Positions 6,407 to 52,403 of a DNA stretch of 64,000 nucleotides are shown here, in pieces. The position numbers and the translations under genes were made by a program. Positions within the stretch are counted from its first letter, which is position 1. Each line of letters opens with the position of its first letter. The stretch spans positions 1-64,000 of the forward strand of contig JAFGVK010000107.1 of the NCBI GenBank assembly GCA_016938035.1, read 5' to 3'. The stretch is from Deltaproteobacteria bacterium. Its GTDB lineage: Bacteria; Myxococcota_A; UBA796; GCA-2862545. The notes beneath the pieces are model-generated. The model ran no database searches. It was not told where the DNA came from and was given only the letters and a program-made list of their open reading frames with translations.

Positions 6407-6949
6407 TCAGCCCTCGTTCGAATCCCTGCCCGGCAGGTCATCCACCACCCTCACCCACCGCTGCAGCGCCGGCAGCACCTCCTGGCCCCACTCGGGCGCG
6501 GTGCGCAGGGCGGTGAACTGGCGGAACAGCGCCCCGACCACCAGGTAGGCCTCCTCATAGAGGAACATGCGGTCGTGGATCGCCTCCTCGCCGCCCCCCA
6601 CCACCTGCGGGAGCTTGAGCTGGGTGATGTGCAGCTCGGCCCCCTTGAGGGTGAGCAGGTACTCCCGCTCGTCGCGGCGGAAGCCCAGCCGGACCTCGTG
6701 CAGCACCTTTCCCCCGGCCAGCGCGGCGCGGGCCTCCAGGGTGATGGAGGCGTTCTCGCCCGTCATCACCGCCAGGACCTTGGCCTCGTCGGGGTTGCGG
6801 AACGCCAGCCGCTGATCGACCCACACGTTGACCGTACCGATCGGCTCGCCCAGATCGAAGAGGTTCTCGTGCTGCTCGGAGTGCCACCACAGCCAGGTTG
6901 TGAACTCGACCGCTAGGTGCGGGAGGACAGGGGCTCCTTCTGCAGACAT
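6407..6949 (-). CDS. Partner protein of the RdgC-like gene
   Basis: A 180-residue cytoplasmic protein, MSAEGAPVLPHLAVEFTTWL at its start, with no signal peptide or membrane segment. It has aromatic N-terminal stretches (WLWWHSEQHENLFDLGEP) and a mixed alpha/beta pattern. I do not recognise a named family. Its ATG overlaps the stop of the RdgC-like gene in a TGATG, so the two are translationally coupled and probably act together, perhaps as one split protein in the way RdgC has several domains. The gene ends near a strong hairpin. Function inferred only from coupling. Confidence 0.65.
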   Translation of the reverse strand: MSAEGAPVLPHLAVEFTTWLWWHSEQHENLFDLGEPIGTVNVWVDQRLAFRNPDEAKVLAVMTGENASITLEARAALAGGKVLHEVRLGFRRDEREYLLTLKGAELHITQLKLPQVVGGGEEAIHDRMFLYEEAYLVVGALFRQFTALRTAPEWGQEVLPALQRWVRVVDDLPGRDSNEG

Positions 6950-7560
6950 CAGCGCACCCCGTGGAGGTTTGCGGGAGAACCGGCGAGCAGGGACTCGACC
7001 ACTGCCTCGTCCTCGACCCAGTCGAGGGGAGAGAGCGGCACCAGGGTGAGCCCGAAGGTGTTGCGAAAGCGCTTGCGGAACCTGTCCATCATGGACTCGG
7101 AGAGCGAGTGCAGCAGCAGGTATCCCTGGGGGATGTTCCAGCAGGCCTCAGTGACCGCGACCCTGGGGAGGGTGCGCTTCAGCCACTCTGCCTCCAGCGC
7201 CTCCTTCATCTCGGCCTTCACCGAGCCAGGGCAGCGCTCCTTGTTGCGCTCAGCGGCCCACAGCTCACAGCGCTTGGCGAGGGTCGCGGAGAACAGCTTG
7301 GCGGGAAGCGACTTCTTGTCCACCCGCAGGGCGAAGACCGCGTAGTCGCCAAACAGCCAGCGGTCCACGTCGTTGAATTCCGTGTCGAGGAGGTTCTGGT
7401 AGTTACACCAGCCCTCTACCTCCTCCTTTCCGACCTCGGTGAGAGGCTCCTGGAAGGCGTTGGTAGCGAACAGATCGGGGTAGACGGAGCGGAAGTCAGC
7501 GGGGACCTCCCCCTCGACCCTAAGCCTGCGAACCGTCATCGCACCGCCGGTGATACCCAT
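6949..7560 (-). CDS. RdgC-like recombination-associated protein
   Basis: A 203-residue protein resembling the shortened RdgC-like proteins of deltaproteobacteria. The start MGITGGAMTVRRLRVEG, the DVDRWLFGDYAVFALRVDKKSLP segment (written here only as landmarks DRWLFGDY and LRVDKK), and the RFRKRFRNTFGLTLVPLSP end match the general RdgC plan. RdgC binds DNA and modulates RecA filaments in proteobacteria. This version is shorter than the roughly 300-residue enterobacterial protein. The ATG at 7560 has GGAG five bases upstream. It is the first gene of a coupled pair. Assignment rests on pattern recognition and is moderate. Confidence 0.6.
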   Translation of the reverse strand: MGITGGAMTVRRLRVEGEVPADFRSVYPDLFATNAFQEPLTEVGKEEVEGWCNYQNLLDTEFNDVDRWLFGDYAVFALRVDKKSLPAKLFSATLAKRCELWAAERNKERCPGSVKAEMKEALEAEWLKRTLPRVAVTEACWNIPQGYLLLHSLSESMMDRFRKRFRNTFGLTLVPLSPLDWVEDEAVVESLLAGSPANLHGVR

Positions 7561-7617
7561 GCGTGCTCCAGAGTGACGTAAGAGGTGAAGCGAGCCCTAG
7601 GACCCGACGGGCTCAGA

Positions 7618-8442
7618 TCAGACCGAGCCCATCTCGTGGAGGGCGTGGCGGAAGACCACCACCTCGCCGCCCTTGGTGTTCATGCTGATCTCGAAGCGCG
7701 AGAACCACCCAACGGTGCCCTGGAGACGGTCCCCCGAGACGAGCACCACCTCTACCTCTGCGGCGGTGTCGAGATACCGGAACAGGCGCGACGTAGAGAT
7801 CGTGTAGCGGTCCTTGGGCGTCGGCGGCGGGACCAGGCCCAGCGCCGCGACCTTCTTGTCGCTCTTGATCGCCTTCTTGATCGCCTTCCAGTCCGCGGGG
7901 GGGTGGGCGTAGAGCATCGACAGCTTGTGGATCTCTCGGGCCTCTTGCTCCTTCGCCGGCGCCATCATCACCGCGTAGGGCTCCACCGAGACGATCGTGC
8001 CCTCGACCACCTCGCCTCCGACCAGCGCGACCCGCAGTGGGGCGCCGGAGACCTGGTAGGCGTCGAGCACGGAGCGGGTGGGGTTCTCTGCCGCGTACAC
8101 GGTCTGGCGGCGACGCCGGAGCACGATCTCCTGGTCAACGTGCCCGCGGGCGATTTGAACCGCGAGCGACCAGGGCAGCTCGTGATCCTTCTGAATGCGG
8201 CGCGCCTTCTCTTGCAGCGCCATGCGCTCGAGCGCCTCACTCAGCTCGACCCGTCCCTGCGCGACGCCCATGGCCAGCTGGAAGGGCATGCCCTGCGCGT
8301 GCAGCTCCTCGGCGCGCTCCTTGAGCCTGGGATCCTCACGACGAACCGGACGGGGCGCCGGCTTCCGCGCAGCGGGCCTCGGCTTCGGCTTGGGAGCGGA
8401 AGGAGTGGGGTTAGGATTGATGTATAGGACCTTTCGCACCAC
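7618..8442 (-). CDS. Double LSm (Hfq-like) RNA-binding protein
   Basis: A 274-residue protein. Residues 1-40 are a Pro/Lys/Arg-rich basic tail. Residues 50-110 hold two copies of a helical motif (GMPFQLAMGVAQG and ELPWSLAVQIARG). Residues 127-180 (APLRVALVGGEVVEGTIVSV) and 215-270 (VEVVLVSGDRLQGTVGWFSR, then VVFRHALHEM) look like two LSm folds. The second closely follows Hfq: Hfq has LVNGxxLQGxIxxFD and YKHAI at the corresponding places. The protein may therefore be an RNA chaperone in which two LSm units sit on one chain. I chose the GTG at 8442, which has GGAG six bases upstream, over an ATG at 8499 with no binding site. It is followed by the RdgC-like pair. Confidence 0.6.
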   Translation of the reverse strand: MVRKVLYINPNPTPSAPKPKPRPAARKPAPRPVRREDPRLKERAEELHAQGMPFQLAMGVAQGRVELSEALERMALQEKARRIQKDHELPWSLAVQIARGHVDQEIVLRRRRQTVYAAENPTRSVLDAYQVSGAPLRVALVGGEVVEGTIVSVEPYAVMMAPAKEQEAREIHKLSMLYAHPPADWKAIKKAIKSDKKVAALGLVPPPTPKDRYTISTSRLFRYLDTAAEVEVVLVSGDRLQGTVGWFSRFEISMNTKGGEVVVFRHALHEMGSV

Positions 8443-8503
8443 GGTTGACTCCGGGAAGGGTGGGATACATATGGATAATCCGGCACTCAGGCAAGCCATT
8501 TGT

Positions 8504-9811
8504 TCAGGCCTGAGCGTAGGCCTCTACCGCCAGGACCAGGTCCGTGAGCGTCTCTCCCGCCACAAAAAGGACCGGGAATTGCTCCTCGCTGAGGCGCTGT
8601 GCCTTCTCGCCGCGCAGTGAGGCCCCCCACACAACCAGCACGTCGGCCCACCCCAGCAGCTCGCTCGGCCCCACGTCAGGCGAGACGAACCGAATCTCCA
8701 CTCGGGCGTCAATCCCGGCCCGGAGCAGGCGCTGCCAGAGCCCTCCTCCGCCCATCACCGCGACCCTGCGGTAGCCGAAGAGCAGCCAGATCTCCCCCAC
8801 CCGCTCCACGCGCTTCTCCAGCTCTGTTGCGCTGGGGAGCTCTGCCCGGTCGAGAGACACCTGCACGCCCGCCCACCCGGTCGGCACCTGCTCGGCGGGG
8901 TCGCTTGAGGTGAGCACCAGGGCTTCCCGGAGGGTGGCGCGCCATCCGGCGGCGTCCAGCACCCGAAGCTGCCCGAGGCGGGCCTTGCCTGCTCGCGTCG
9001 TGAAGAGCGCCGAGACCGCCCGCCCATGCTCCTCCAGCCCCGAGAGGCCTCGCTCCTGGAGCAGCGCGTCGAGGGGGGCGCCTCCCTCCTCCTCTAGCCT
9101 CACCCTCGCCGCGGCGATCTCCTCCACGGCGGAGCGCCTCACCCGCTCGATCTCCTCGCGCGCGCCGGCCTGCATCCGCTCGGCGGTCGCGAGCGCCGCC
9201 GCCGCCGCGTCCACTGCGACCCGCTCGGCGGCGCGCGCCTCCTCCAGCTCGGCCCTCATCCGGGCCAGCTCCGCCTGAAGCGCGGCGCGCTCCAGGTCCT
9301 GCCGTGCCAGGGCGCGGGCGAAGTCCTCTCGATCACGGCCCAGACGGCGCTCACGTGCGCTGAGGTCCTGCTCACGGCGCTGGAGCTCCCGGTCGCGCTG
9401 GGTGACCGTGGGAGCCACCGGGGCGGGGGGAGGCGGTGCGTGACTTGACACCGCGGGCGGCGGCGGGGGAGGCGCCGGCGACAGCGCGGGCGCGGTCCCC
9501 TTGGACGGCGCAGGCCTGGGCCTGTGTGGCTCGCGCCCGTGGCGCTGCACCCCTGGCACCAGCTGCGCCATCACATCCACCTCTTGTGGTGGCGCCTCCA
9601 CCTGTCTGGCCTGGGCGGGGACCGCTAGCGGCGCGATCTTCACCGGCTTCACCCCCCGGCGAGACGCCACGCGCACCTTGTCCGCCATCGCCGTGGGGAG
9701 CATGTCCTCCGGTGAGCGATACCGTTCAATGCCGATCGCGTGGAGAATCCCAAGGACCTCTCCCGGCGTGTGCTGCAGCTCCCTGGCCAGCTTGCGCACC
9801 CGTACAGCCAT
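8504..9811 (-). CDS. IF2-N domain protein with coiled coil
   Basis: A 435-residue protein. Residues 1-50 (AVRVRKLARELQHTPGEVLG and onward) match the IF2_N helical module normally found at the N-terminus of translation initiation factor IF-2. It is not followed by a GTPase. Residues 90-140 are Pro-rich, and 140-250 form a charged coiled coil (RDRELQRREQDLSARERR). The C-terminal 130 residues include VAVMGGGGLW and WADVLVVWGAS, weakly like a Rossmann or DUF2325-type fold. The ATG at 9811 has GGGAGG upstream; the open frame runs back to 9901 without a binding site. Possibly RNA- or ribosome-linked, but function is unknown. It lies just upstream of the LSm gene on the same strand. Confidence 0.6.
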   Translation of the reverse strand: MAVRVRKLARELQHTPGEVLGILHAIGIERYRSPEDMLPTAMADKVRVASRRGVKPVKIAPLAVPAQARQVEAPPQEVDVMAQLVPGVQRHGREPHRPRPAPSKGTAPALSPAPPPPPPAVSSHAPPPPAPVAPTVTQRDRELQRREQDLSARERRLGRDREDFARALARQDLERAALQAELARMRAELEEARAAERVAVDAAAAALATAERMQAGAREEIERVRRSAVEEIAAARVRLEEEGGAPLDALLQERGLSGLEEHGRAVSALFTTRAGKARLGQLRVLDAAGWRATLREALVLTSSDPAEQVPTGWAGVQVSLDRAELPSATELEKRVERVGEIWLLFGYRRVAVMGGGGLWQRLLRAGIDARVEIRFVSPDVGPSELLGWADVLVVWGASLRGEKAQRLSEEQFPVLFVAGETLTDLVLAVEAYAQA

Positions 9812-9939
9812 AGCAGCCTCCCAGCACGACCACATAGCGGCTCCTAGGGCCACGTGCCGCACCGCGGTGCGCATATCCATCATCCACGTCGAGGACACCA
9901 CACAGTGCCCAGAGCAGTGGAGCGGACAGGACCTCGCCT

Positions 9940-10161
9940 TCAGCGGTTGATCACACGTACTTGCTCGACAATGAGCGATGGAGCCCCAGTCATGGTGAAG
10001 CTCACCTCAGCGCCGAGCACCCCGTAGAGCTCCACCCTGGCCCCGTCCAGCCCTGGGGGCAGGCTCCCGTGGAGCGCCCACTGCCCACCGGCGTCATCCT
10101 CCAACAGCCAGCCACCCATCCCGAGATCGACGCGCCGCAGCGTCCCCACCTTGCGAATCAT
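9940..10161 (-). CDS. Small beta-rich protein coupled to the subtilase
   Basis: A 73-residue protein, MIRKVGTLRRVDLGMGGWLL at its start. It reads as a small OB-like or DUF5818-like beta barrel (WLLEDDAGGQWALHG, then a LDGARVELYGVLG turn). It has no signal peptide. The ATG overlaps the stop of the upstream subtilase gene (ATGA) with GGAG just before it, so translation is coupled. A role in modulating or binding the protease is possible but only inferred. Confidence 0.65.
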   Translation of the reverse strand: MIRKVGTLRRVDLGMGGWLLEDDAGGQWALHGSLPPGLDGARVELYGVLGAEVSFTMTGAPSLIVEQVRVINR

Positions 10162-11855
10162 CTCTCCTCCCCCCGCTCCAGGCGGTCCGCCCCCATGAGC
10201 GCCATCGCCATCAACAGCGAGAGCGCGCCGTTGACGCCAAGCCAGGCGACACCGATCGACCCGGGCATCAGCCAGGGGCTGAGGGTTCCGGTGGCGGCGC
10301 CGTAGATCAGGTGGGTGCCGATCCCCACCGCGAAGCCCACGGCGAGCGGCCTGCCAGGGCGAAAGGCTCCCAGGACAAACACCGCCAGCAGTGGTCCGAG
10401 CGCCGAGAGCCACAGCGGGAAGCCCGCCCCCCACGCACCCACCCAGGCGGTGGGCCACAGCAGGAGGGCCTGCCGCAGGGTGAGCGTCCAGGGCCCCAGC
10501 GCCGGCAGGAAGAACAAGCCCCCCGCCACCACCGCCGCGACCGCCGCAGACACCGCCCTGGCACCGGATCCCATGCGCGTCAGCCCGGTGAGGAGCAGGG
10601 CCACGATCCCGGCAAGGGCGAAGCGGGTGAGCGGGTCCGAGCCCTGAGAGCGATCCAGGGCCCGCCCCAGATCCATCGCCCCGAACCCGAGCTGAGGCTC
10701 CCAGGTGCGCTGGCCCCCGCTCAGGAGCATGGCGCGCTCCACCTCGTCAGGGGTGAGCCCGGTGGAGAGCAGCACCGCGGCGGCGCCCGCGACGTGGGGG
10801 GTCGCCATCGAGGTGCCCTGCAGCTCCGCGTACTGGCTGCCGCCGGCCCCATCGATGGTGTTCTGCAGGACGCCGCCCCCCGCGATGGACTTGTCTCCAC
10901 CAGGCGCGGCGAGGTCTACCCCCTCGCCCCACGAGGAGTAGGGCGCGAGCGTCCCCTTAGGGCCCACCGCCGCGACACCGATGGTGTCTGCCAGCGCCCC
11001 AGGCCACGAGACCCCCTCCCTGCCAGAATTGCCCGCCGCCGCGATCACCAGCACCCCCTTGGCGCGGGCCTTGTGCACCGCCAGCTCCACCACCCTGGAG
11101 TAGGGCCCCCCCAGCGAGAGGTTGATCACGTCCGCGCCCTGATCGACCGCGTAGTCGATCCCCGCGGCGATCCACGGCGACTCGCCCCCCCCGTAGGCCG
11201 AGAGCACCTTCACCGGGAGGATGGTCGCCTCTGGCGCCACCCCAGCGGTGCCGAGCCCGTTCCCGGTGGTCTGGGCGATGGTCCCGGCGACGTGGGTCCC
11301 GTGCCCGTTTCTGTCTATCGCGTCGGGCTCTGAGGGGACGAAGGAGGCCCCGTCCAGCAGGCGCTCCGGATCCAGATCGGGGACCTTGGCCACCCCGGTG
11401 TCGATGACCGCCACCGTGATCCCCCTGCCCTTGGGCGTCCTGGCCCACCCCTCCGGAGCCCCCACCGCGCCCAGGTGCCACTGCCGCGGGTAGAGGGGGT
11501 CGTTGGGGAAGCTCAGGGCCTGCAGCGTGACGCTCGGCTCCACCGCCTCCACCCCCTCCAGGCCCTCCAGGCGGGCCACCGCCGCGGCGAGATCCTCCAC
11601 CCGCCCCTGCGAGAGCGCCTCGTCCCGCGCCAGCTCGTGGACCCAGTCGAGATCCGCCCCCAGCAGCGCCTCTACCCGCTGAAGGTCCGCCTCGGTGGAC
11701 CCGTCGTCAAGATCCACCACCAGCAGCCCCCCCTGGGAGGACACCGGCGCCGCGACCGGCGCGGGGAGGTGGCGGGCGGGCGCCCCCGGCGTGAGCGCCC
11801 ACATCGCGCCCATCAGGCCGCCCGTCGCGAGAATCGTCCAGTTCGCACGCCTCAT
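10158..11855 (-). CDS. Subtilisin-like serine protease with polytopic membrane tail
   Basis: Secreted or membrane-bound S8 family peptidase of 565 residues. The N-terminus has a signal or anchor segment (about 5-25). A propeptide-like region follows (to about 115). The catalytic domain carries the full triad: Asp152 in VIDTG, His185 in NGHGTHVAG and Ser349 in GTSMATPHVAG, with the oxyanion residue Asn276 in AAGNSG. The C-terminal 150 residues contain about four to five hydrophobic segments, so the protease is tethered to the membrane. This tail is unusual for S8 enzymes. The downstream small gene is coupled. The gene diverges from the caspase-like gene. Confidence 0.9.
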   Translation of the reverse strand: MRRANWTILATGGLMGAMWALTPGAPARHLPAPVAAPVSSQGGLLVVDLDDGSTEADLQRVEALLGADLDWVHELARDEALSQGRVEDLAAAVARLEGLEGVEAVEPSVTLQALSFPNDPLYPRQWHLGAVGAPEGWARTPKGRGITVAVIDTGVAKVPDLDPERLLDGASFVPSEPDAIDRNGHGTHVAGTIAQTTGNGLGTAGVAPEATILPVKVLSAYGGGESPWIAAGIDYAVDQGADVINLSLGGPYSRVVELAVHKARAKGVLVIAAAGNSGREGVSWPGALADTIGVAAVGPKGTLAPYSSWGEGVDLAAPGGDKSIAGGGVLQNTIDGAGGSQYAELQGTSMATPHVAGAAAVLLSTGLTPDEVERAMLLSGGQRTWEPQLGFGAMDLGRALDRSQGSDPLTRFALAGIVALLLTGLTRMGSGARAVSAAVAAVVAGGLFFLPALGPWTLTLRQALLLWPTAWVGAWGAGFPLWLSALGPLLAVFVLGAFRPGRPLAVGFAVGIGTHLIYGAATGTLSPWLMPGSIGVAWLGVNGALSLLMAMALMGADRLERGEER

Positions 11856-40462: not shown

Positions 40463-41038
40463 ATGGACGCCCCCCTGCTCACCGACTGGTCCTCGCTCCT
40501 CGCGGCCTCACCCCTCGCGGTCCGGGGGGCGGTGGGCCTGGCGGGCCTGCTGTTGCTCCTGGCGGGCGCCCGCCTCTACCGGCCGGCCCTGGGGCTCACC
40601 GCCTTCGCCTTTGGGGCCCTGCTGGCGGTGGGTGGGCTCAGGGCCCTCGCCCCCTATCTGCCCGGCGTAGACGCCCCCACCCTGCTGCTTGCGGGCGCGG
40701 TGATCCTGGGGCTGGTGAGCGCCGCGGTGGCCACCTTCGCCCACAGGGTCGGGCTCGCCTCTGCAGGCGCGATCCTCGGCCTTGGGGGCGGCGCTGCGGC
40801 CTGGCAGGCGGCGACCGGCGCCCCAGCACCCCTGTGGGTGCCCCTGGGGGGGGCGGCGCTGGGCGCGCTGGCGCTGCCCTTCGCCTTCGGATCGCTGCTC
40901 CTTGTCCTCACCCCCGCGGTGGGCGCCCTGTGCCTGACCGGGGCGGCCGGCTGGGGGCAGACCCTGCCGGTGATGGGCGGGCTGTGGCTGGGAGGCACCG
41001 CCATCCAGTGGCTGACGCGGAAGCGGAAGCGGGCCTGA
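40463..41038 (+). CDS. Polytopic membrane protein (DUF4203/TMEM198-like)
   Basis: A 191-residue protein consisting almost entirely of about six to seven hydrophobic, Gly/Ala/Leu-rich segments (for example AGLLLLLAGARLYRPALGLT and AFGALLAVGG), ending in a basic tail RKRKRA. It resembles the repeated small-residue pattern of DUF4203/TMEM198-type membrane proteins. It follows ftsB by four bases, so it is probably cotranscribed. Function unknown. Confidence 0.65.
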   Translation: MDAPLLTDWSSLLAASPLAVRGAVGLAGLLLLLAGARLYRPALGLTAFAFGALLAVGGLRALAPYLPGVDAPTLLLAGAVILGLVSAAVATFAHRVGLASAGAILGLGGGAAAWQAATGAPAPLWVPLGGAALGALALPFAFGSLLLVLTPAVGALCLTGAAGWGQTLPVMGGLWLGGTAIQWLTRKRKRA

Positions 41039-41310: not shown

Positions 41311-44300
41311 CTACCTGGGCCGCATCGTGACCTCGCGCAGGTCGCAGGCGAGCCCCCCGTGCCTGGCCCCCAGCCGGAAGCCGAGGCGGTAGAAATACTC
41401 GGGCCTGAAGAAGCCCGCCGTCACCCGCTCCACCCCCTGATCGCGCATCCGCATCAGGAATTCGCGCATCAGCGCCTCGCCCACCCCCACCCGGCGGAAG
41501 GCGTCCGCCACCACCAGCTTCTCCAGGTTCACCTCCCCCTCCTCAGGGGGGGTGTGGAACAGGCCACCGATGAGGTAGCCGCGATCCGAGATCGCCACCA
41601 GGAAGCGGTGGTGGGCGTCGAACTCCACCGGCAGGTTGGCCTTGAAGTAGAGCTGATGCAGCGCGGCGACCTCGCGGGCAGACACAGGCCGGCGGACGAA
41701 GAAGGGGCGCCCGTCCGCGTCCTCGAAGCGAACCACCAGATCCGCGGTGCGCGCCCCGTCCGAGAACAGGCGCAGCAGGGTGGCCTCGTCCTGCGGCTGG
41801 ACGTGGGGGTACGAGATCCGGGCGAGGAAGTAGGCGTCGCGATCGCTGAGTGGGTAGCGCTCCTGGATGCCCGACAGCGCGGCGAGCACCTCATCGGCGG
41901 TCAGGCGATCCGCGCGCTGGCGGGCCACAAGCTGCTCCAGCGCCCCCCTCACCTCGGGGGAGGAGTCCGCGAAGACCGTCTCCAGGAAGAACCTGGTCCT
42001 GGTCCCGGGGAAGCGCACCTCCTGCTCCCGCAGGGCGTAGGTCTCGAGCAGCTCCTCCGCCACCTCGGCGTAGTCCTTCAGGGTCGGCCCCTCTGAGCGA
42101 CCCAACCAGCGCTGGTAGCGCCTGCGGGCGAAATACAGCCCCTTGGGGACCGCCCCCATGCCCTCCAGCCCCGCGAGGAAGGCGGCGAGCGCCTCCTGCA
42201 ACGGCGGGACCCCCTCTACAAGCGCGGCGTCATCGCCCTCATCGCGGAGCCTGTGCAGCAGGGCGACCCCCGCCTCCTCCCCCTCCGAGTCGATCACCGC
42301 CGAGAACACGAAGGGCCACATCGAGCCCTGCGCCAGCTCGGGGTACTCCCGCTCCGTCTCTAGGACGAAGCTCCGGTACAGTCCGCAGAAGAAGTGCCCG
42401 TACGCGCGGAAGGGCGTCCGGTCGGAGAGAGACACCACCTTGGTCCCCCCCAGGTAGTCGTGGCGGGGTGACACCAAGTGGCGGGGCGAGGGGCTCGCGA
42501 GCTGCAGCGAGAGCCCGGTTCGGGTGAGCAGGCCCACATAGACCTCCGCCGCGGACCAGACAAAGAAGGGCCACAGGGACCTGAGCCGCTCGGTGACCGC
42601 CGGATCGCGCTTGCGGGACATCCTCCGCAGGAAGCGGGCCACCGACTCCCCGGCGGCGTACTCCTCGGTCCAGATGCGGTGCTCGGGCCACCAGCCCCCC
42701 AGGGCACCCACCAGGGTCCCCCGCCCGTGCGAGGCCCCCGCGGCGATCAACCAGTCCACCTCCTCGTGGATCTCCGAGTCGCTGAGCACCAGGATCAGGT
42801 TGAAGACCAGGTCGAAGGCCCGCCCGTCGCGCGTCTGGGTCCTGACCCGGTACACCGCCCGCTCCGGACCGGACCCCAGGTGGGACACCCACACCCCCCC
42901 CCGCGACAGGTCCGTGAGCTCCACCCTCGCGCCCCCGAAGAGGAGGAAGATCGACTCCGCCAGGGCGCTGCTCTGCTGCAGGGCGGTGAGCAGGCGGAGC
43001 TGGTCCTCCGGGGCGATCCCACCGTCAAAGGCGACCACCTCCTCCCACCCGTAGGCGTCGCCGGTGTCCGAGTCCACCGCCGCGAGGGCCCTCCCAGCGA
43101 ACCAGCCCCTACACCCCGCCTGGAGGCGCGCACCCGCCGCCACAGCGAGCGCCGCCACCGCGTTGGACTCCGCCTGGAGGTGGAAGCGCACCACCGCCTC
43201 GCGCGCCCTGCGGAACAGCTCGGGGTGCTCCAGCCCGCAAGCGACCAGCAGGTCGAAGAGCGCGGGCAGCACCGAGGTCCTCACCTCGTAGGCGGTGCGG
43301 TGCTCCCCCTGGGCCTCGTCGAGCACCGCCTCGATGGCGGCGACGTGGGCCTCAGTGCGGCACACCTCGGCGACCCAGCCCACCCGCTCCTCGTCCAGCA
43401 GCGCCCCGTCCAGGGTCGCGAACACCGACAGCAGCCCCTGAAAGCGCTGCACCGGCACATAGCGCAGGGCGACCCGGAGCATCTCGTGGCGCACCGCCCT
43501 CCGCCGGGTCAGGGCTGGGCGAAACAGGCACTCGAGCGCCAGGTCGCGGTACATGCACTCGCGCCGCCTGGCGATGTTCTCCAGGTAGTGGACCGCCGCG
43601 AGGCCGTGCTGCTGAATGGGCGACTGCAGGTGTAGCATCGCGAGGTGCAGCCCCTGGAGCGAGCGCTCCCCCGCCTGGACGATCGCCGCGAACGCGGTCT
43701 GAAGCGCGGGCGGCACCGGGCGAGGGTCCACCTGGCACGCGAAGCAGACGGTGCTCTTGGGTCGGTTCGGGCGATACCAGCCCTCCAGCGCCCGCTGGGC
43801 GAACGCAAACAGCTCGTAGTTTCCCAGCCAATTGAGGGGATCGGTGAGCAGGCGGTGGAGGTCCACCCGGCCCTGGTGGAGGTTGTAGACGTAGTCACCC
43901 ACCCGAAGCTGGTGGGGGCGGTCCTCTACCGGCTCCAGCCGGAGGCGGCGGTCGAGCTTGGTGATCTCCAGCCCCCCCTCCGAGGCGACGATGTCCCCGC
44001 TCAGGCAGCCGCTCTCGCGGTAGAACCAGTTGGGGATGCGGACCTCTAGCCGGTCCCAGCGGACGGACGAGAAGCCCTGTACGTACATCTCCTCGATAAC
44101 GGCGCTGTAGTTCTCCTCCACCACCCTCCGCTTGAAGGTGCCCTTGGGGGTCAGCTCCCCCCGCTCCACCGAGAGCGGCCGCTCCAGCAGGCGGAAGTCG
44201 AGCACCCGCTCGTGGGGCATGAGGAAGGCGTTGGCGCTCACCACCAGCGACGAGAAATAGGCCCGCCGCTCCTTGTCATCCATCTCTGCCAGCAGCTCCC

Positions 44301-45975
44301 CCTCCACCGCCCAGGCGGGGTAGAGGAGCAGGGTGTTATGGGCGCGGTGATCGCCCACCAGGAAGGCCTGCTCCACCGCGTCGAATTCGGTGAGGATGTG
44401 CTCGACGCGCTGTGGCGAGATGGTCTCGCCCTGGCTGTTCTTGTAGATGTCCTTCTTGCGGTCGACGATCTCGATGAAGCCGTCCTCGTCCTGGCGCATG
44501 ATGTCGCCGGTGGCGTACCACCCGTCGCGGATCGGGCTGTCCTCGTCGCTGACGCCGAAGTAGCCCGAGGTGACGTAGGGGCCGCGGATGAACAGCTCCC
44601 CGTCCTCGCCGAGCCGGAGCTCCACGCCCGGCAGCGCGCCCCCCAGGGAGCGCGGGCGGTAGCGCCCAGGGGGGGTCATGGTGATCCCCCCTGTGGCCTC
44701 GGTCATCCCGAAGCCGCTCATCAGCTCCACCCCGTGCCGCTGGAAGAAGCCAAACACCTCGGGCGACAGGTAGCCCGCCGCGGACAGGCCCCACCGCAGG
44801 GCGCCGCCGGTGAGGAGGCGGAGCTCCATCTGCAGGCTCTCCTCCGAGGCGACGGCTGGGTCGAGCTGAGAGGTGATCAGCTCGTAGAGCTGCTCCCACT
44901 TGCGCGGCACCGAGATGAACACCGTGGGGCGCACCCGGCGCATCCCCGACACGAGCATCTGGATCGACGGGCTCTCGGCGAAGGTGTAGCTGGCGCTCCA
45001 GAACAGGCTGCCCATCAGCTCGAAGAAGCGACCGAAGGTGTGGAAGAGCGGCAGATATGAGAGGAACCTGTCGCCCTCTCCCAGCTCGGGGAGGGCCAGC
45101 GCCCGCGCGTAGCGCTTGAAGATCATGTTGGTGTGCGAGAACAGGATCCCCTTGGGCAGCCCGGTGGTGCCCGAGGTGAACATCGCGGTGGTGACCTGAT
45201 CCGCGCGGATGCCGGCCCTGCGCCCGGCCAGCGCGCCCTCCTCCACCTCCGCGCCGCCCGCGATCAGTTCGTCGAGGGTCATCACGTCGTGGGCAGCGCT
45301 CCTGCCGCGGAAGATCACCAGCTGCTGCAGGGCGCGGGTCCTGCCCTGGACGCTCTTCACCCGCGACAGGACCTGATCGTCCGCCACCAGCATCAGGGGC
45401 GCCTCGGTAGACTCGAGGATCATCGCGATGTGCTCGGCGGGCGCGTTGGCGGGGATGATGACATTGAACAGGCCCGCGCTGAGGCAGGCCAGATCCGCGA
45501 GCGCCATGTCGAGGGAGTTATTGAGCGCGAAGGCGATCTTCCCGTCGGGCTTCCCGAGCCGGTCCAGCGCCGCGATCAGGGCGCGGGCCACCTCATCCAC
45601 CCTGCGTGAGGTCTCGGCCCAGTCCAGGGTCCGCTCCTCAGAGCCCACCAGCACCCGAAACAGCACCTTGTCCGGGTGCAGGGCGACGCGCTGCGCGATG
45701 AGGTTGTGCAGGGTGTAGTCGGAGCGCCGGATCAGCTGCAGGAGGCGATCCTCCCACCGCGTGTCACCCTGCACCGCGCGCAGCACGACGCTGTGTCGCA
45801 GCACCTCCAACAGGGCATGCGCCGCGGGGATCGCCTCCCCTCCGCGCTCCAGGCCCCCCAGGGTGTCGTCACAGGCGCGGGCTAGCGCCTCGATCAGCGC
45901 GGTGACATCGGCGTCCTCTGTGAGGATCGCGGCTCGGAGTCCGTGGACTTGGGAGACGGAGGGGACAGGGGGCAT
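41311..45975 (-). CDS. Giant acyl-CoA synthetase fusion with GNAT C-terminus
   Basis: A 1554-residue protein. Residues 85-640 are an adenylate-forming (long-chain fatty-acyl-CoA synthetase-like) domain: TSGTTGLPKG (267-276), SGFGMTEATGG (420-430), GWYATGD (485-491), DRKKDIYKN (505-513) and the PKGTFKRR end with the A10 Lys. The middle (about 650-1400) is unlike a synthetase; it contains an LGSGPERAVYRVRT segment, possibly kinase-like, and long helical stretches. The last 150 residues resemble a GNAT acetyltransferase (LVVADAFRRVGVGEALMREF, then FYRLGFRLG). The ATG has GGAG seven bases before it. It could activate an acyl group and pass it on within one chain; that is inference. Confidence 0.75.
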   Translation of the reverse strand: MPPVPSVSQVHGLRAAILTEDADVTALIEALARACDDTLGGLERGGEAIPAAHALLEVLRHSVVLRAVQGDTRWEDRLLQLIRRSDYTLHNLIAQRVALHPDKVLFRVLVGSEERTLDWAETSRRVDEVARALIAALDRLGKPDGKIAFALNNSLDMALADLACLSAGLFNVIIPANAPAEHIAMILESTEAPLMLVADDQVLSRVKSVQGRTRALQQLVIFRGRSAAHDVMTLDELIAGGAEVEEGALAGRRAGIRADQVTTAMFTSGTTGLPKGILFSHTNMIFKRYARALALPELGEGDRFLSYLPLFHTFGRFFELMGSLFWSASYTFAESPSIQMLVSGMRRVRPTVFISVPRKWEQLYELITSQLDPAVASEESLQMELRLLTGGALRWGLSAAGYLSPEVFGFFQRHGVELMSGFGMTEATGGITMTPPGRYRPRSLGGALPGVELRLGEDGELFIRGPYVTSGYFGVSDEDSPIRDGWYATGDIMRQDEDGFIEIVDRKKDIYKNSQGETISPQRVEHILTEFDAVEQAFLVGDHRAHNTLLLYPAWAVEGELLAEMDDKERRAYFSSLVVSANAFLMPHERVLDFRLLERPLSVERGELTPKGTFKRRVVEENYSAVIEEMYVQGFSSVRWDRLEVRIPNWFYRESGCLSGDIVASEGGLEITKLDRRLRLEPVEDRPHQLRVGDYVYNLHQGRVDLHRLLTDPLNWLGNYELFAFAQRALEGWYRPNRPKSTVCFACQVDPRPVPPALQTAFAAIVQAGERSLQGLHLAMLHLQSPIQQHGLAAVHYLENIARRRECMYRDLALECLFRPALTRRRAVRHEMLRVALRYVPVQRFQGLLSVFATLDGALLDEERVGWVAEVCRTEAHVAAIEAVLDEAQGEHRTAYEVRTSVLPALFDLLVACGLEHPELFRRAREAVVRFHLQAESNAVAALAVAAGARLQAGCRGWFAGRALAAVDSDTGDAYGWEEVVAFDGGIAPEDQLRLLTALQQSSALAESIFLLFGGARVELTDLSRGGVWVSHLGSGPERAVYRVRTQTRDGRAFDLVFNLILVLSDSEIHEEVDWLIAAGASHGRGTLVGALGGWWPEHRIWTEEYAAGESVARFLRRMSRKRDPAVTERLRSLWPFFVWSAAEVYVGLLTRTGLSLQLASPSPRHLVSPRHDYLGGTKVVSLSDRTPFRAYGHFFCGLYRSFVLETEREYPELAQGSMWPFVFSAVIDSEGEEAGVALLHRLRDEGDDAALVEGVPPLQEALAAFLAGLEGMGAVPKGLYFARRRYQRWLGRSEGPTLKDYAEVAEELLETYALREQEVRFPGTRTRFFLETVFADSSPEVRGALEQLVARQRADRLTADEVLAALSGIQERYPLSDRDAYFLARISYPHVQPQDEATLLRLFSDGARTADLVVRFEDADGRPFFVRRPVSAREVAALHQLYFKANLPVEFDAHHRFLVAISDRGYLIGGLFHTPPEEGEVNLEKLVVADAFRRVGVGEALMREFLMRMRDQGVERVTAGFFRPEYFYRLGFRLGARHGGLACDLREVTMRPR

Positions 45976-46107
45976 GGGGCGCTCCAGAGGGTGGACTCAA
46001 GGTGCCATGAAACACGCGCGGGCGGTATGTCGCATCCGCGTGATGTAGCGGCATCGTGGCGTTTCCCCCTCGCGCTCGGGGCGGTTAGTCCCCGCCCTGG
46101 GGGCACC

Positions 46108-48234: not shown

Positions 48235-49143
48235 CTACCTGAGCACGTCCGCCAAGGCGGCGCCCAACTCCGGGAAGCGGAGGGGCTGATCGTAGCGAGA
48301 GATCACCCGCGCGCCCCCCGAGAGGTAGTTCGCCGCCTCGCCCAGCCCAAGCCGCAGCAGGGGCGTGGGGTAGCGCAGCAGGGCGTGCCGCCCCATCGCG
48401 GCAGCCACCGCGCGGTCGAAGTCCGCGTTGCGCACCGGCGCCTGGCTGACGCCGTTGATGGGCCCGTCCAGCGTCTCGTCATCCAGGGCGCGCAGAAAGA
48501 CGCTCACCAGGTCGTCGAGGTGGATCCAGTTCAGCCAGGGCGCTGGGTCTCCGAAGACCCCGCCCATGCCGAAGCGAAACAAGGGGAGCAGCTCCTTGAG
48601 GGCGCCGCCGCGCTTGCTGAGGGCGATGCCGATGCGGACCGGCGCGACCCGCACCCCCTGCGCGCGGAGGGGGGCGGAGGCTGCCTCCCAGTCCACGCAG
48701 ATCCCGGCGAGGAAGTCGTCCGCGGGGGCGGTGCGCTCGTCGGCGGTCAGCCCGGGGTCGGTGCCGTAGTAGCCCGCGGCGGAGGCGGAGACGAAGACCC
48801 TGGGGCGGTGCTCCCCCAGCGCCCCGACGAGCTGCTCGGTAGACCGCACCCTGGACGCGCGCAGGTCCGCCTTGACCTTCGCGCTCCACCGCTTGGCGAA
48901 CAGGGGGGTCCCAGCGAGGTGCACCACCGCGTCCGCGTCGGCGAGGGCCTGACGCCAGTCCCCCGCGTCAGGTCGGTAGAGGTCCCACTCGGCGGCGCCA
49001 GCGCCCGAGGGCAGGGCGCGCTTCGCGCGCTGAGGATCGCGGGCCAGGGCGGTGACCTTGTCACCTCGCTCGACCAGCCTGGTGGCTAGCGCCCCCCCGA
49101 TGAGTCCGGTCGCGCCAGTCAACACAACGTGACGATCGCTCAT
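48235..49143 (-). CDS. TIGR01777/YfcH-type NAD-dependent epimerase
   Basis: A 302-residue short-chain dehydrogenase/reductase-fold protein. VVLTGATGLIGGALATRLV (6-24) is the Rossmann motif, VVHLAGTPLFAKRWS the NAG-like second motif, and SASAAGYYG carries the Ser/Tyr catalytic candidates. NWIHLDDLVSVFLRAL and NADFDRAVAAAMGR are typical of this family, whose substrate is unknown. The preceding membrane protein gene overlaps by ATGA, so the two are coupled. Confidence 0.88.
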   Translation of the reverse strand: MSDRHVVLTGATGLIGGALATRLVERGDKVTALARDPQRAKRALPSGAGAAEWDLYRPDAGDWRQALADADAVVHLAGTPLFAKRWSAKVKADLRASRVRSTEQLVGALGEHRPRVFVSASAAGYYGTDPGLTADERTAPADDFLAGICVDWEAASAPLRAQGVRVAPVRIGIALSKRGGALKELLPLFRFGMGGVFGDPAPWLNWIHLDDLVSVFLRALDDETLDGPINGVSQAPVRNADFDRAVAAAMGRHALLRYPTPLLRLGLGEAANYLSGGARVISRYDQPLRFPELGAALADVLR

Positions 49144-50243
49144 GATGCCGCCAGTGCGGGCGCGGCCCGCCGCTGCAAGGTTGGACTAAAGACCACGAAG
49201 CCCACCAGCACCGAGTAGGTGAGCACAGAGATCAGGGCGAGCGCCGGGGAGATCGAGCCGAGCGGGGCCAGGATCAGCACCGTGAGCCACTGCAGCGCGA
49301 TGATCGCCCAGGTGTTGAAGCGGGCGGGGAAGCCGTCCTCCCGCAGGATGATGAACAGTCCCGACAGGTTCCACCCGTAGAGCGACACCACCTCGTGCAG
49401 GCGGATCATCGCGTCGCCGGACTGCTTGAGGGCCTCGTTGTAGTAGCCGCCGATGTAGAGCACCCCGGTGATCGCGGTGATCACCAGGAAGCCCAGCCCC
49501 GAGAGGAGAAACGCCTTCTGCTGCGTGAAATGCGCTCGCTTCGCGAACAGGCCGAGCACGGTCAGCACCGACAGCAGCAGGTAGTTGGAGATGGCCAACT
49601 CCAGGCCCCCCAGCTCGAAGATGATGAAGCCGAAGAACACGATCACGCCCAGGTTGATGCTCCAGAAGGCGGCCTCCTGCAGGGGCCGCGCCTCTGTCTC
49701 GTCCAGGCGCTCGAAGATCAGCGAGAGGGTGATCAGGCTGATCGGGAAGGAGTAGCCGAGGAAGAACACGTCCAGCGACAGCTTCTCCATCTCGACCCAG
49801 TGATAGAAGTGGGAGTTGAGGATCGCCACAACCGCCACCCAGAGGCCGATCGACAGACAGAGGACGCTGGCGTGGCGGAACTTCTTCCACACCGGCACCA
49901 CGCGAAAGAAATCCACGGGGAACCACGAGAAAGACCTGACCCTCGCGTTCTCGATCAGGAGCGACAGGGGCACGGTGAGCGCGATGGTGAGGAGGTACTT
50001 CTCGTAGAAGGCCGACAGGGCGTAGGCCACCGCGAAGAGCACCCAGGCCCCGATCTGCCAGTCCCGCTTCTCGCGTCCCCGCGTGACGTACAGGATGAGC
50101 GCCCCACCTGTCACCAGGTTGAACAGGAACACGTGCAGCCGCTCAAACTGCAGCGGGAAGTCGGGCGCCAGGTGATGCGCGAAGCCAAAGCTGAGCGCCA
50201 CGATCAGGAAGACACCGGCCAGGATCTTGTGGAGCAGGGGCAC
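49140..50243 (-). CDS. Polytopic membrane protein coupled to the epimerase
   Basis: A protein of about 367 residues with some ten hydrophobic segments (for example PLLHKILAGVFLIVALSFGF, LLSVLTVLGLFA and WAIIALQWLTVLILAPL). It has no recognised family. The true start is uncertain: a GTG at 50243 has GGAG upstream, whereas an ATG at 50288 has no binding site and adds 15 residues. The stop overlaps the next gene's ATG. A role in lipid or isoprenoid processing would fit a TIGR01777 partner but is only a guess. Confidence 0.6.
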   Translation of the reverse strand: MPLLHKILAGVFLIVALSFGFAHHLAPDFPLQFERLHVFLFNLVTGGALILYVTRGREKRDWQIGAWVLFAVAYALSAFYEKYLLTIALTVPLSLLIENARVRSFSWFPVDFFRVVPVWKKFRHASVLCLSIGLWVAVVAILNSHFYHWVEMEKLSLDVFFLGYSFPISLITLSLIFERLDETEARPLQEAAFWSINLGVIVFFGFIIFELGGLELAISNYLLLSVLTVLGLFAKRAHFTQQKAFLLSGLGFLVITAITGVLYIGGYYNEALKQSGDAMIRLHEVVSLYGWNLSGLFIILREDGFPARFNTWAIIALQWLTVLILAPLGSISPALALISVLTYSVLVGFVVFSPTLQRRAAPALAAS

Positions 50244-50325
50244 GGACAGGACTCCAGGGCAGGGAGCGCCCCACCATCGCGAGCGCATCCCATGCTCTAA
50301 CAGGAACAGGTCGGGCCCCCCACCT

Positions 50326-51015
50326 CTACGGGACGGTGATGAAATCCACGTACTCGCCGTGGTAACGGCAGTGGCCAGTCACCCGCACCACGTCGCCGCT
50401 CTTGGCGCCGTCGGGCAGGTCGACGAGGTACACCGTGTTGCGTCCGCCCTTCTCGGCAATGTCACCGCCACCCAGCACCGCGTACTGCCCGGTGGCGCCC
50501 TCGCCGACAGCGGGCCAGCCGTTGAAGGTGGTGACGGTGGCATCAGGGGCCCCCTCCACCGAGGGACGCACGGTGATCAGGTCGAAGAAGTGGCCATTTT
50601 CGTAGCTCTCGGTGCCCTCGGGCGCGTTGGGGTGCTGCGCGTTTCCCGCGCTGTCGTCCCCGAACATCAGGGCCAGCTTGCCCTCCGGCACCTGGTAGCC
50701 CTCCACCTTGGCGACGTAGGGCAGGTGCTTGCCCAGGTGACCGGTGTCACCGCCCTCAGCGTTGATCTTCTCCATGTACCCGCTGGGGATGGCGCCGGCC
50801 GCGCCGTGCGCCTTGTTGTAGGACATCGCGTCCCAGTCGGCGGGCTTGACGAGGGGCAGCGCGACCTCGGCGGGGGCGGCCACGGGTACCTCCGCAGGCG
50901 CCACGTCCTGCGCGAGGGGAGCCTGTGCGGCCTCCTCCCCTGCGGGGTGGGACGCCTCGGGCTGGCCGCAGGCCTGGAGGACGAGTGAGAGCGCGACGAG
51001 GGAGAGGATCTTCAT
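50326..51015 (-). CDS. Lipoprotein with C-terminal OB-like domain
   Basis: A 229-residue lipoprotein with signal MKILSLVALSLVLQAC (lipidated Cys16) followed by an Ala/Pro-rich linker (residues 20-60). The mature domain has the segments YNKAHGAAGAIPSGYMEKIN, FGDDSAGNAQHPNAPEGTES and a beta-rich end GDVVRVTGHCRYHGEYVDFI. It has no catalytic motif. The ATG at 51015 has GGAG six bases before it; the frame extends further upstream without a good start. Function unknown. Confidence 0.65.
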   Translation of the reverse strand: MKILSLVALSLVLQACGQPEASHPAGEEAAQAPLAQDVAPAEVPVAAPAEVALPLVKPADWDAMSYNKAHGAAGAIPSGYMEKINAEGGDTGHLGKHLPYVAKVEGYQVPEGKLALMFGDDSAGNAQHPNAPEGTESYENGHFFDLITVRPSVEGAPDATVTTFNGWPAVGEGATGQYAVLGGGDIAEKGGRNTVYLVDLPDGAKSGDVVRVTGHCRYHGEYVDFITVP

Positions 51016-51092
51016 GGAGACTCCGAGGAAAGACCTCCACCGGCTATCCCGTTCGCGCGCCTGCACAGCGCCGAGCTCCGCCCGCGGTAGGC

Positions 51093-52403
51093 TCACTCAC
51101 CTGAGCAGAGCTCCTCCTCCACCCGGATCAGGCGGTCGCCTCTCAACACCATATACGCGAGGCGCCTGGCGCTAAGCCAGCTCAGCGAGGCGCCCCCCAG
51201 GGTGAGCAGGGAGCTGCTAGGGGGGCCCGCCTGCTGATCCACCACCACCAGCTGCCTGTCTCCCGCGCGGACACCCCAAGCGAGGTGGGCGCCGTCAGGG
51301 CTAAAGCTCAGCCCGGTGCGCAGCTCGTCCCACAGCGGCCCCGCCTCGCCGTCGACCACGACCCGCACGCCCCCCTCCACCTGCGCCGCCCAGGCCGCGC
51401 GCTCGCCGCCTGGCGAGAGGGTGAGGCTCCCGGGCACCGGCTCGTCGGTGAGTTCCTCCCGCGCCCCGTCGACCACCACCCTCCAGCGGTCCTCGTTGCG
51501 GGCGGTCCACGCGACGTGAGCCCCGTCGGGAGAGAAGACCAGATCGCTGCCGATCGCCTCCCACGGCCCCACCGGCACCCCGTCGACCACCACCCACCAG
51601 CCACCCCTGCCCAGGGCGGGGTAGACGAAGCGCCCCTGGGGCGAGAAGCGAGCCAGGTCGCTGTCCACCTCATCCCAGGCCTGAGAGCGCACCCCCTCCA
51701 CCACCGCGAAGCGCTCCTCGCCCTCCCGCGCGACATAGGCGACGCGATCTCCGGCCGGCGAGAGGAAGGTCGCCTCCACCCCGTCCCAGCCCTCGCTGCG
51801 CTCCCCTCCCCGCACAACCACCCAGCGGTGACCGGCGCGGGCCGCGAAGAACGGGGCGCCGTCCGCACCGAGCAGCAGCGGGGTGGCGATGCGGTCGAAC
51901 AGGTCCTCCAGCGGCTCCACCGGCCCGGAGAGGGAGGCGGGCGTCAGGGGGAGCAGCGGGCCGCCGTCCCGCTCGACCATCGGCATCCACCAGTGCTCGT
52001 GGACCTGCACCCCTACGACCAAGCTGTTGCCATCCGCAGAGAAGGCGAGCGACTGCTCCAAGAAGCCCGGCAGCGGCGGCCCTTCCCTGCCACCGGTCAC
52101 CATGTGCCAGCTCTCGCCGCGCCGCGCTAGGTAGGCGACCTGTCGGGAGTCGGGCGAGAAGATCGGGGTCCCCACCGCCACGTCATCGTACAGGGGCCCG
52201 TAGCGCCCGTTCACCGCCACCCGGACCTGCCCCCCGGTCACCCTGCTCACCCAGGTGACGCTGCGCTGATCCGGGCTGACGCGGAAGGAGTCCGGGATGA
52301 ACCCGCTGTCCACCTGCCCCAGCGACAGCTCCGCGTCGACCTCTCGTCTAGCGAGCGGCCCGGCGGCGAGGGCGATCAGGGCGAGTACGATGAGGACAGG
52401 CAT
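51093..52403 (-). CDS. Exported beta-propeller protein
   Basis: A 436-residue exported protein with signal MPVLIVLALIALAAG. The rest repeats a roughly 45-residue unit (consensus VVDG-GPxWDxVxxxxxFSPDGxxVAWxAR). I count about eight copies, for example IGSDLVFSPDGAHVAWTARN and RTGLSFSPDGAHLAWGVRAG. That pattern is a PD40/WD40-like beta-propeller of the TolB type. It lacks TolB's N-terminal domain. AGGAG lies five bases before the ATG at 52403. Probably a periplasmic binding scaffold. Confidence 0.75.
   Translation of the reverse strand: MPVLIVLALIALAAGPLARREVDAELSLGQVDSGFIPDSFRVSPDQRSVTWVSRVTGGQVRVAVNGRYGPLYDDVAVGTPIFSPDSRQVAYLARRGESWHMVTGGREGPPLPGFLEQSLAFSADGNSLVVGVQVHEHWWMPMVERDGGPLLPLTPASLSGPVEPLEDLFDRIATPLLLGADGAPFFAARAGHRWVVVRGGERSEGWDGVEATFLSPAGDRVAYVAREGEERFAVVEGVRSQAWDEVDSDLARFSPQGRFVYPALGRGGWWVVVDGVPVGPWEAIGSDLVFSPDGAHVAWTARNEDRWRVVVDGAREELTDEPVPGSLTLSPGGERAAWAAQVEGGVRVVVDGEAGPLWDELRTGLSFSPDGAHLAWGVRAGDRQLVVVDQQAGPPSSSLLTLGGASLSWLSARRLAYMVLRGDRLIRVEEELCSGE

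Follow-up and report, generated by a model that had tools for sequence, protein, structure and literature searches.

Bacterial protein acetylation is tied to metabolism by GNAT enzymes that are fused to inactive synthetases, to cAMP-binding domains or to amino-acid-binding domains. In the type I enzymes Pat of Salmonella and PatZ of E. coli, a large N-terminal acyl-CoA synthetase module and a C-terminal GNAT share one chain, and the synthetase is inactive and of the NDP-forming kind, which is the synthetase domain carried by type I and type II GNATs (PMC8556138). GNATs also acetylate a conserved lysine of AMP-forming acyl-CoA synthetases, FadDs included, and the mycobacterial cAMP-dependent Pat (MSMEG_5458/Rv0998), in which the GNAT is controlled by a cAMP-binding regulatory domain, acts in this way on separate FadD ligases (PMC6640162). 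The protein described here resembles Pat/PatZ in its overall plan. However, its synthetase is of the AMP-forming (ANL) kind (PF00501), and about 800 residues, including a predicted pseudokinase, lie between synthetase and GNAT; an NDP-forming domain was not detected in the chain by Pfam. It shares the GNAT fold with the mycobacterial enzyme, whereas its ligase and its putative regulatory domain are both present in cis. This arrangement lies outside all five GNAT types of a review, and the open literature that was searched yielded nothing relevant on a ligase-pseudokinase-GNAT architecture. The chain is a new architecture assembled from known kinds of parts, and the protein is real, conserved and, so far as the searches reach, uncharacterised.

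The gene was found in a 64,000-nucleotide stretch of a Deltaproteobacteria bacterium contig (the window), where it occupies positions 41311-45975 of the minus strand as an uninterrupted frame of 1554 codons with no internal stops, an ATG start at 45975 and a stop codon at 41313-41311. The original prediction of an acyl-CoA synthetase, an unassigned middle and a C-terminal GNAT in a single 1554-residue chain agrees with both the open reading frame and Pfam, which assigned AMP-binding to residues 95-473 (E 2.8e-58), AMP-binding_C_3 to residues 513-632 (E 3.2e-12) and Acetyltransf_1 to residues 1447-1533 (E 1e-7). No match in Pfam or NCBIfam was obtained for the approximately 800 residues between ligase and GNAT, so the anticipated lack of a simple family match for the middle was borne out. 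NCBIfam returned acyl-CoA ligase matches alone, all below cut-off, with FadD11 at the top, and the remaining matches within the genome of the window were stand-alone ligases that aligned to the ligase portion only. The first 94 residues (45694-45975, minus strand) form an N-terminal extension that is longer in relatives and has no family match. A pair of genes joined by a sequencing frameshift was not found; the chain of approximately 1500-1700 residues recurs as a single frame in many genomes, and this conservation rules out a frameshift, a chimera or two artificially fused genes.

Relatives were collected in one wider scan of genome contigs by peptide patterns and with a profile of the middle region, and the search for the same architecture elsewhere, as originally advised, located it in three phyla. 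According to the profile, the fusion protein is encoded in 22 of the 40 Calditrichaceae-phylum genomes, in 15 of the 297 from the Melioribacteraceae phylum and in 4 of the 284 from the window's own phylum, the window genome included (four to five overall). A further match in genome G493 was discarded, since the frame there looks like a sugar-nucleotide epimerase, and the Melioribacteraceae count is therefore 15 and not 16. The fusion protein was also met in genome G006, which belongs to the family of the window organism, and in one Melioribacteraceae and one Calditrichaceae MAG. Identity to the protein of a second genome of the window's family is 44% across the final 925 residues. Members are single frames except for copies cut by contig ends and one copy interrupted by a stop, and both ligase and GNAT were present wherever this was checked. 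The interrupted copy belongs to the Calditrichaceae phylum (locus L058, G612:C227), where a TAA separates frames of 840 and 742 codons (6488-9007 and 9038-11263); this split, which may reflect a sequencing error, a pseudogene or a genuine two-gene arrangement, is treated as an exception. In the tree, members group largely by phylum and the window copy is sister to that of G006 (SH-aLRT 99), while the deeper part of the tree has long, uncertain branches. Judged from this grouping, the fusion architecture looks old.

The large ligase subdomain (PF00501, residues 95-473; 44557-45693, minus strand) was recognized by Pfam and by its motifs, and the C-terminal subdomain (PF23562, residues 513-632; 44080-44439, minus strand) by Pfam and alignment. 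Sequence comparison identifies the domain as an AMP-forming ligase of the long-chain FACS/CAR type. Both subdomains and their motifs are shared with stand-alone long-chain fatty-acyl-CoA ligases, one of which is encoded in the window's genome and is 29-32% identical over two segments. The stand-alone enzymes, in contrast, measure only about 600-650 residues, and the fused ligases form a clade of their own (SH-aLRT 100), separate from 23 stand-alone ligases and marked by LTPK-x-T/S at A10. The closest sequence match of solved structure is the adenylation domain of a carboxylic acid reductase (E approximately 1e-28), but membership of that family was rejected, since Pfam detected neither a carrier protein nor a thioester reductase domain after the adenylation domain. 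Among 34 members, the P-loop (TSGTTGLPKG, residues 267-276 in the window), A5 (GFGMTEATGG, residues 421-430), A7 and A8 are strongly conserved. The canonical A10 lysine position is occupied by threonine in 32 members (Thr613 in the window) and by serine in two, and two residues upstream Lys611 is invariant in all 34. The stand-alone ligase of the window's genome has lysine at the canonical position. The substitution means that the fused ligase could be altered or inactive; an LTPKxS-type shift of A10 was nevertheless present in 2 of the 23 stand-alone ligases from related genomes, and we therefore lean towards an active enzyme. The sequence LTPKMS in place of LTPxxK was read at A10 of the stand-alone acyl-CoA ligases L124 and L138.

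The middle region had been described as one unit lying between ligase and GNAT. Its location was confirmed, but an AlphaFold2 model of residues 636-1554 built from a 36-member alignment (mean pLDDT 87) divides it into at least three parts. From the N-terminus, the model predicts a beta-rich domain that could not be assigned to a family and contains the conserved elements WFxRExGCL and WLGN (approximately residues 636-750; 43726-44070, minus strand), an all-helical HEAT-like alpha-solenoid, for which a weak HEAT_2 match was obtained in one relative (approximately residues 756-958; 43102-43710, minus strand), and a two-lobed protein-kinase-like domain (approximately residues 960-1250; 42226-43098, minus strand). 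A helical region with the conserved sequence PGTRTRFFLETVF follows (approximately residues 1251-1397; 41785-42225, minus strand) and leads into the GNAT. Foldseek searches with the entire model returned GNATs (the mycobacterial cAMP-binding acyltransferase and GCN5), kinases, and PI3-kinase chains comprising the helical and kinase domains. A separate model of residues 960-1398 (pLDDT 87) matched kinases in the PDB with E values down to 4.7e-6 and a probability of 1.0 at a TM score of about 0.4, which indicates that the core kinase fold is recognized while much of the C-lobe differs. The similarity to kinases and pseudokinases is below Pfam detection, yet when the family profile was compared by hhalign with that of 15 true kinases from the same genome, hinge and catalytic loop lined up at P 0.005, against P values of 0.64 and 0.17 for two controls. 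A kinase-like fold in the middle, as originally suspected, is thus supported by AlphaFold2 and Foldseek and weakly by hhalign. The two segments on which that suspicion was based fared differently: WTEEYAAGESV (residues 1102-1112) falls on the hinge in the hhalign alignment, but the glycine-rich LGSGPERAVYRV (residues 1033-1044) is not conserved as a kinase loop in the family.

Unlike in active kinases, the catalytic residues are missing from this domain. When positions were assigned from predicted strand order and alignment, the beta3 lysine was absent across the family and the DFG aspartate was replaced by serine in 32 of 34 members (Ser1182 lies near this position in the window). The catalytic-loop aspartate is found in 21 members and the asparagine in 28, and the window copy has Ser1161 and His1166 at the HRD-Asp and catalytic-Asn positions. 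With these two residues lost family-wide, and the catalytic-loop residues lost as well in the window copy, the modelled domain is a predicted pseudokinase, for which phosphotransfer is unlikely. Genome G000 is kinase-rich, with 74 Pkinase Pfam matches.

The C-terminal GNAT N-acetyltransferase domain (residues 1398-1554; 41314-41784, minus strand) was assigned by a Pfam match above cut-off and by profile and structure matches. It contains the R/Q-x-x-G-x-G/A acyl-CoA loop, which in the window reads R1494-RVGV-G1499 and in most relatives ends in serine. The top profile match is GCN5 (E 1.5e-8), and the nearest relative of solved structure by sequence is GCN5 of Tetrahymena. GCN5 is a protein acetyltransferase. 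Foldseek ranked the mycobacterial cAMP-binding acyltransferase first, GCN5 second and PatZ twelfth, and weak matches were obtained to RimI, ArsN2 and amino-acid N-acetyltransferase models. No conserved glutamate aligns with the catalytic glutamate of GCN5; a conserved Glu/Asp1485 is located two positions further along the strand. The acceptor of a GNAT cannot be read from its fold alone.

Gene neighbourhoods were compared at 39 loci. A citrate synthase gene adjoins or lies near the fusion gene at 11 of these, in both gene orders; the Melioribacteraceae phylum accounts for nine of the 11 and the window's phylum for the other two, and the Calditrichaceae-phylum loci have none. Across the 39 loci, it was the only neighbour found to be common to different phyla. 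The neighbouring gene is the sole citrate synthase match of its type in G006 and in G221, and the window's genome carries a citrate synthase of the same type on a different contig.

Taken together, these features suggest, as a tentative reading that we hold to be plausible and not quite probable, a single-chain acyl-CoA-coupled acyltransferase analogous to Pat/PatZ but equipped with an AMP-forming ligase. The ligase would make acyl-CoA from CoA and a carboxylic acid at the expense of ATP, or would sense acyl-CoA, and the GNAT would hand an acetyl or other acyl group to a protein lysine, with pseudokinase and solenoid regulating the enzyme or docking its target. The likeliest targets would be the ligase's own C-terminal lysine region, which would provide feedback, and/or citrate synthase as the recurrent genomic neighbour, so that the fusion would act at the acyl-CoA/citrate synthase node. 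A regulatory role and transfer of the acyl group from ligase to acceptor are equally possible. Several observations weigh against the acyltransferase reading: the threonine at the canonical A10 position, the offset of Glu/Asp1485 from the catalytic glutamate of GCN5, and the missing citrate synthase neighbour in the Calditrichaceae phylum and in the window. A bolder version, in which the ligase makes the donor, the GNAT uses it and the pseudokinase controls a self-contained lysine-acylation machine that regulates how carbon enters the TCA cycle through citrate synthase, would add a sixth type to the architectures of bacterial protein acyltransferases and is considered unlikely. An apparently intact acyl-CoA synthetase, a predicted pseudokinase and a GNAT are combined here in one chain, which lies beside citrate synthase in two phyla; if the acyltransferase reading is true, donor synthesis and protein acylation occur within one molecule, which is directly testable, and the protein represents a case of a bacterial pseudokinase in metabolism.

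A different use of the same chemistry is conceivable but rather doubtful, namely that fatty acyl-CoA from the ligase is passed by the GNAT to an amine such as an amino acid, a polyamine or an amino lipid, yielding an N-acyl metabolite or lipid. The ligase is of the long-chain fatty-acyl-CoA type (with FadD11 as best NCBIfam model, below cut-off), many GNATs use small amines, weak RimI, ArsN2 and amino-acid N-acetyltransferase matches were obtained, and squalene/phytoene-synthase-like genes, named by eye, lie upstream at several Melioribacteraceae-phylum loci. Against this, no lipid or amino-acid gene neighbour is common to the phyla, a plain metabolic enzyme has no obvious need for a pseudokinase and a solenoid, and the best GNAT match is a protein acetyltransferase.

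The state of the ligase and of the kinase-like domain gives rise to further alternatives. A catalytically weak ligase could bind acyl-CoA or ATP as a sensor and gate the GNAT through the pseudokinase, for which the inactive NDP-forming domain of PatZ provides a precedent (PMC8556138) and the universal Thr or Ser at the canonical A10 position an argument; this appears unlikely, as the conserved P-loop, A5, A7, A8 and Lys611, together with LTPKMS-type A10 sequences in stand-alone enzymes, suggest that catalysis is retained. It would be highly improbable for the kinase-like domain to be an active atypical kinase that moves phosphate or AMP with unusual residues. The family-specific and nearly invariant His1172-Asp1173-Tyr1174, with Asp1173 in 34 of 34 members, could furnish such residues, and helix-C Glu1072 (32 of 34) and the catalytic-loop asparagine are largely kept, but the missing beta3 lysine, the serine in place of the DFG aspartate and the Ser and His of the window copy speak against catalysis.

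Returning to the proposed acyltransferase, its gene in the window lies head to head with a CstA-family transporter gene, whose likely Met start is at 46105, and the interval 45976-46104 between the two probably contains a divergent promoter region, as judged from the ORF positions and the inferred start. Other neighbours encode a sigma factor, ExbB/ExbD, a DivIC protein and OsmC, and three nearby ORFs (40463-41038, 49140-50288 and 50326-51096) have no Pfam match. LVIVD-like repeat proteins, named by eye, are neighbours in the Calditrichaceae phylum only. At six loci of the Melioribacteraceae phylum (L009, L077-L080 and L082), two squalene/phytoene-synthase-like genes, an amine-oxidase-like gene (also named by eye) and a citrate synthase gene precede the fusion gene in the same direction. 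Genome G203, which also carries a fusion gene, has two citrate synthase genes close together (G203:C760:6345-10777).
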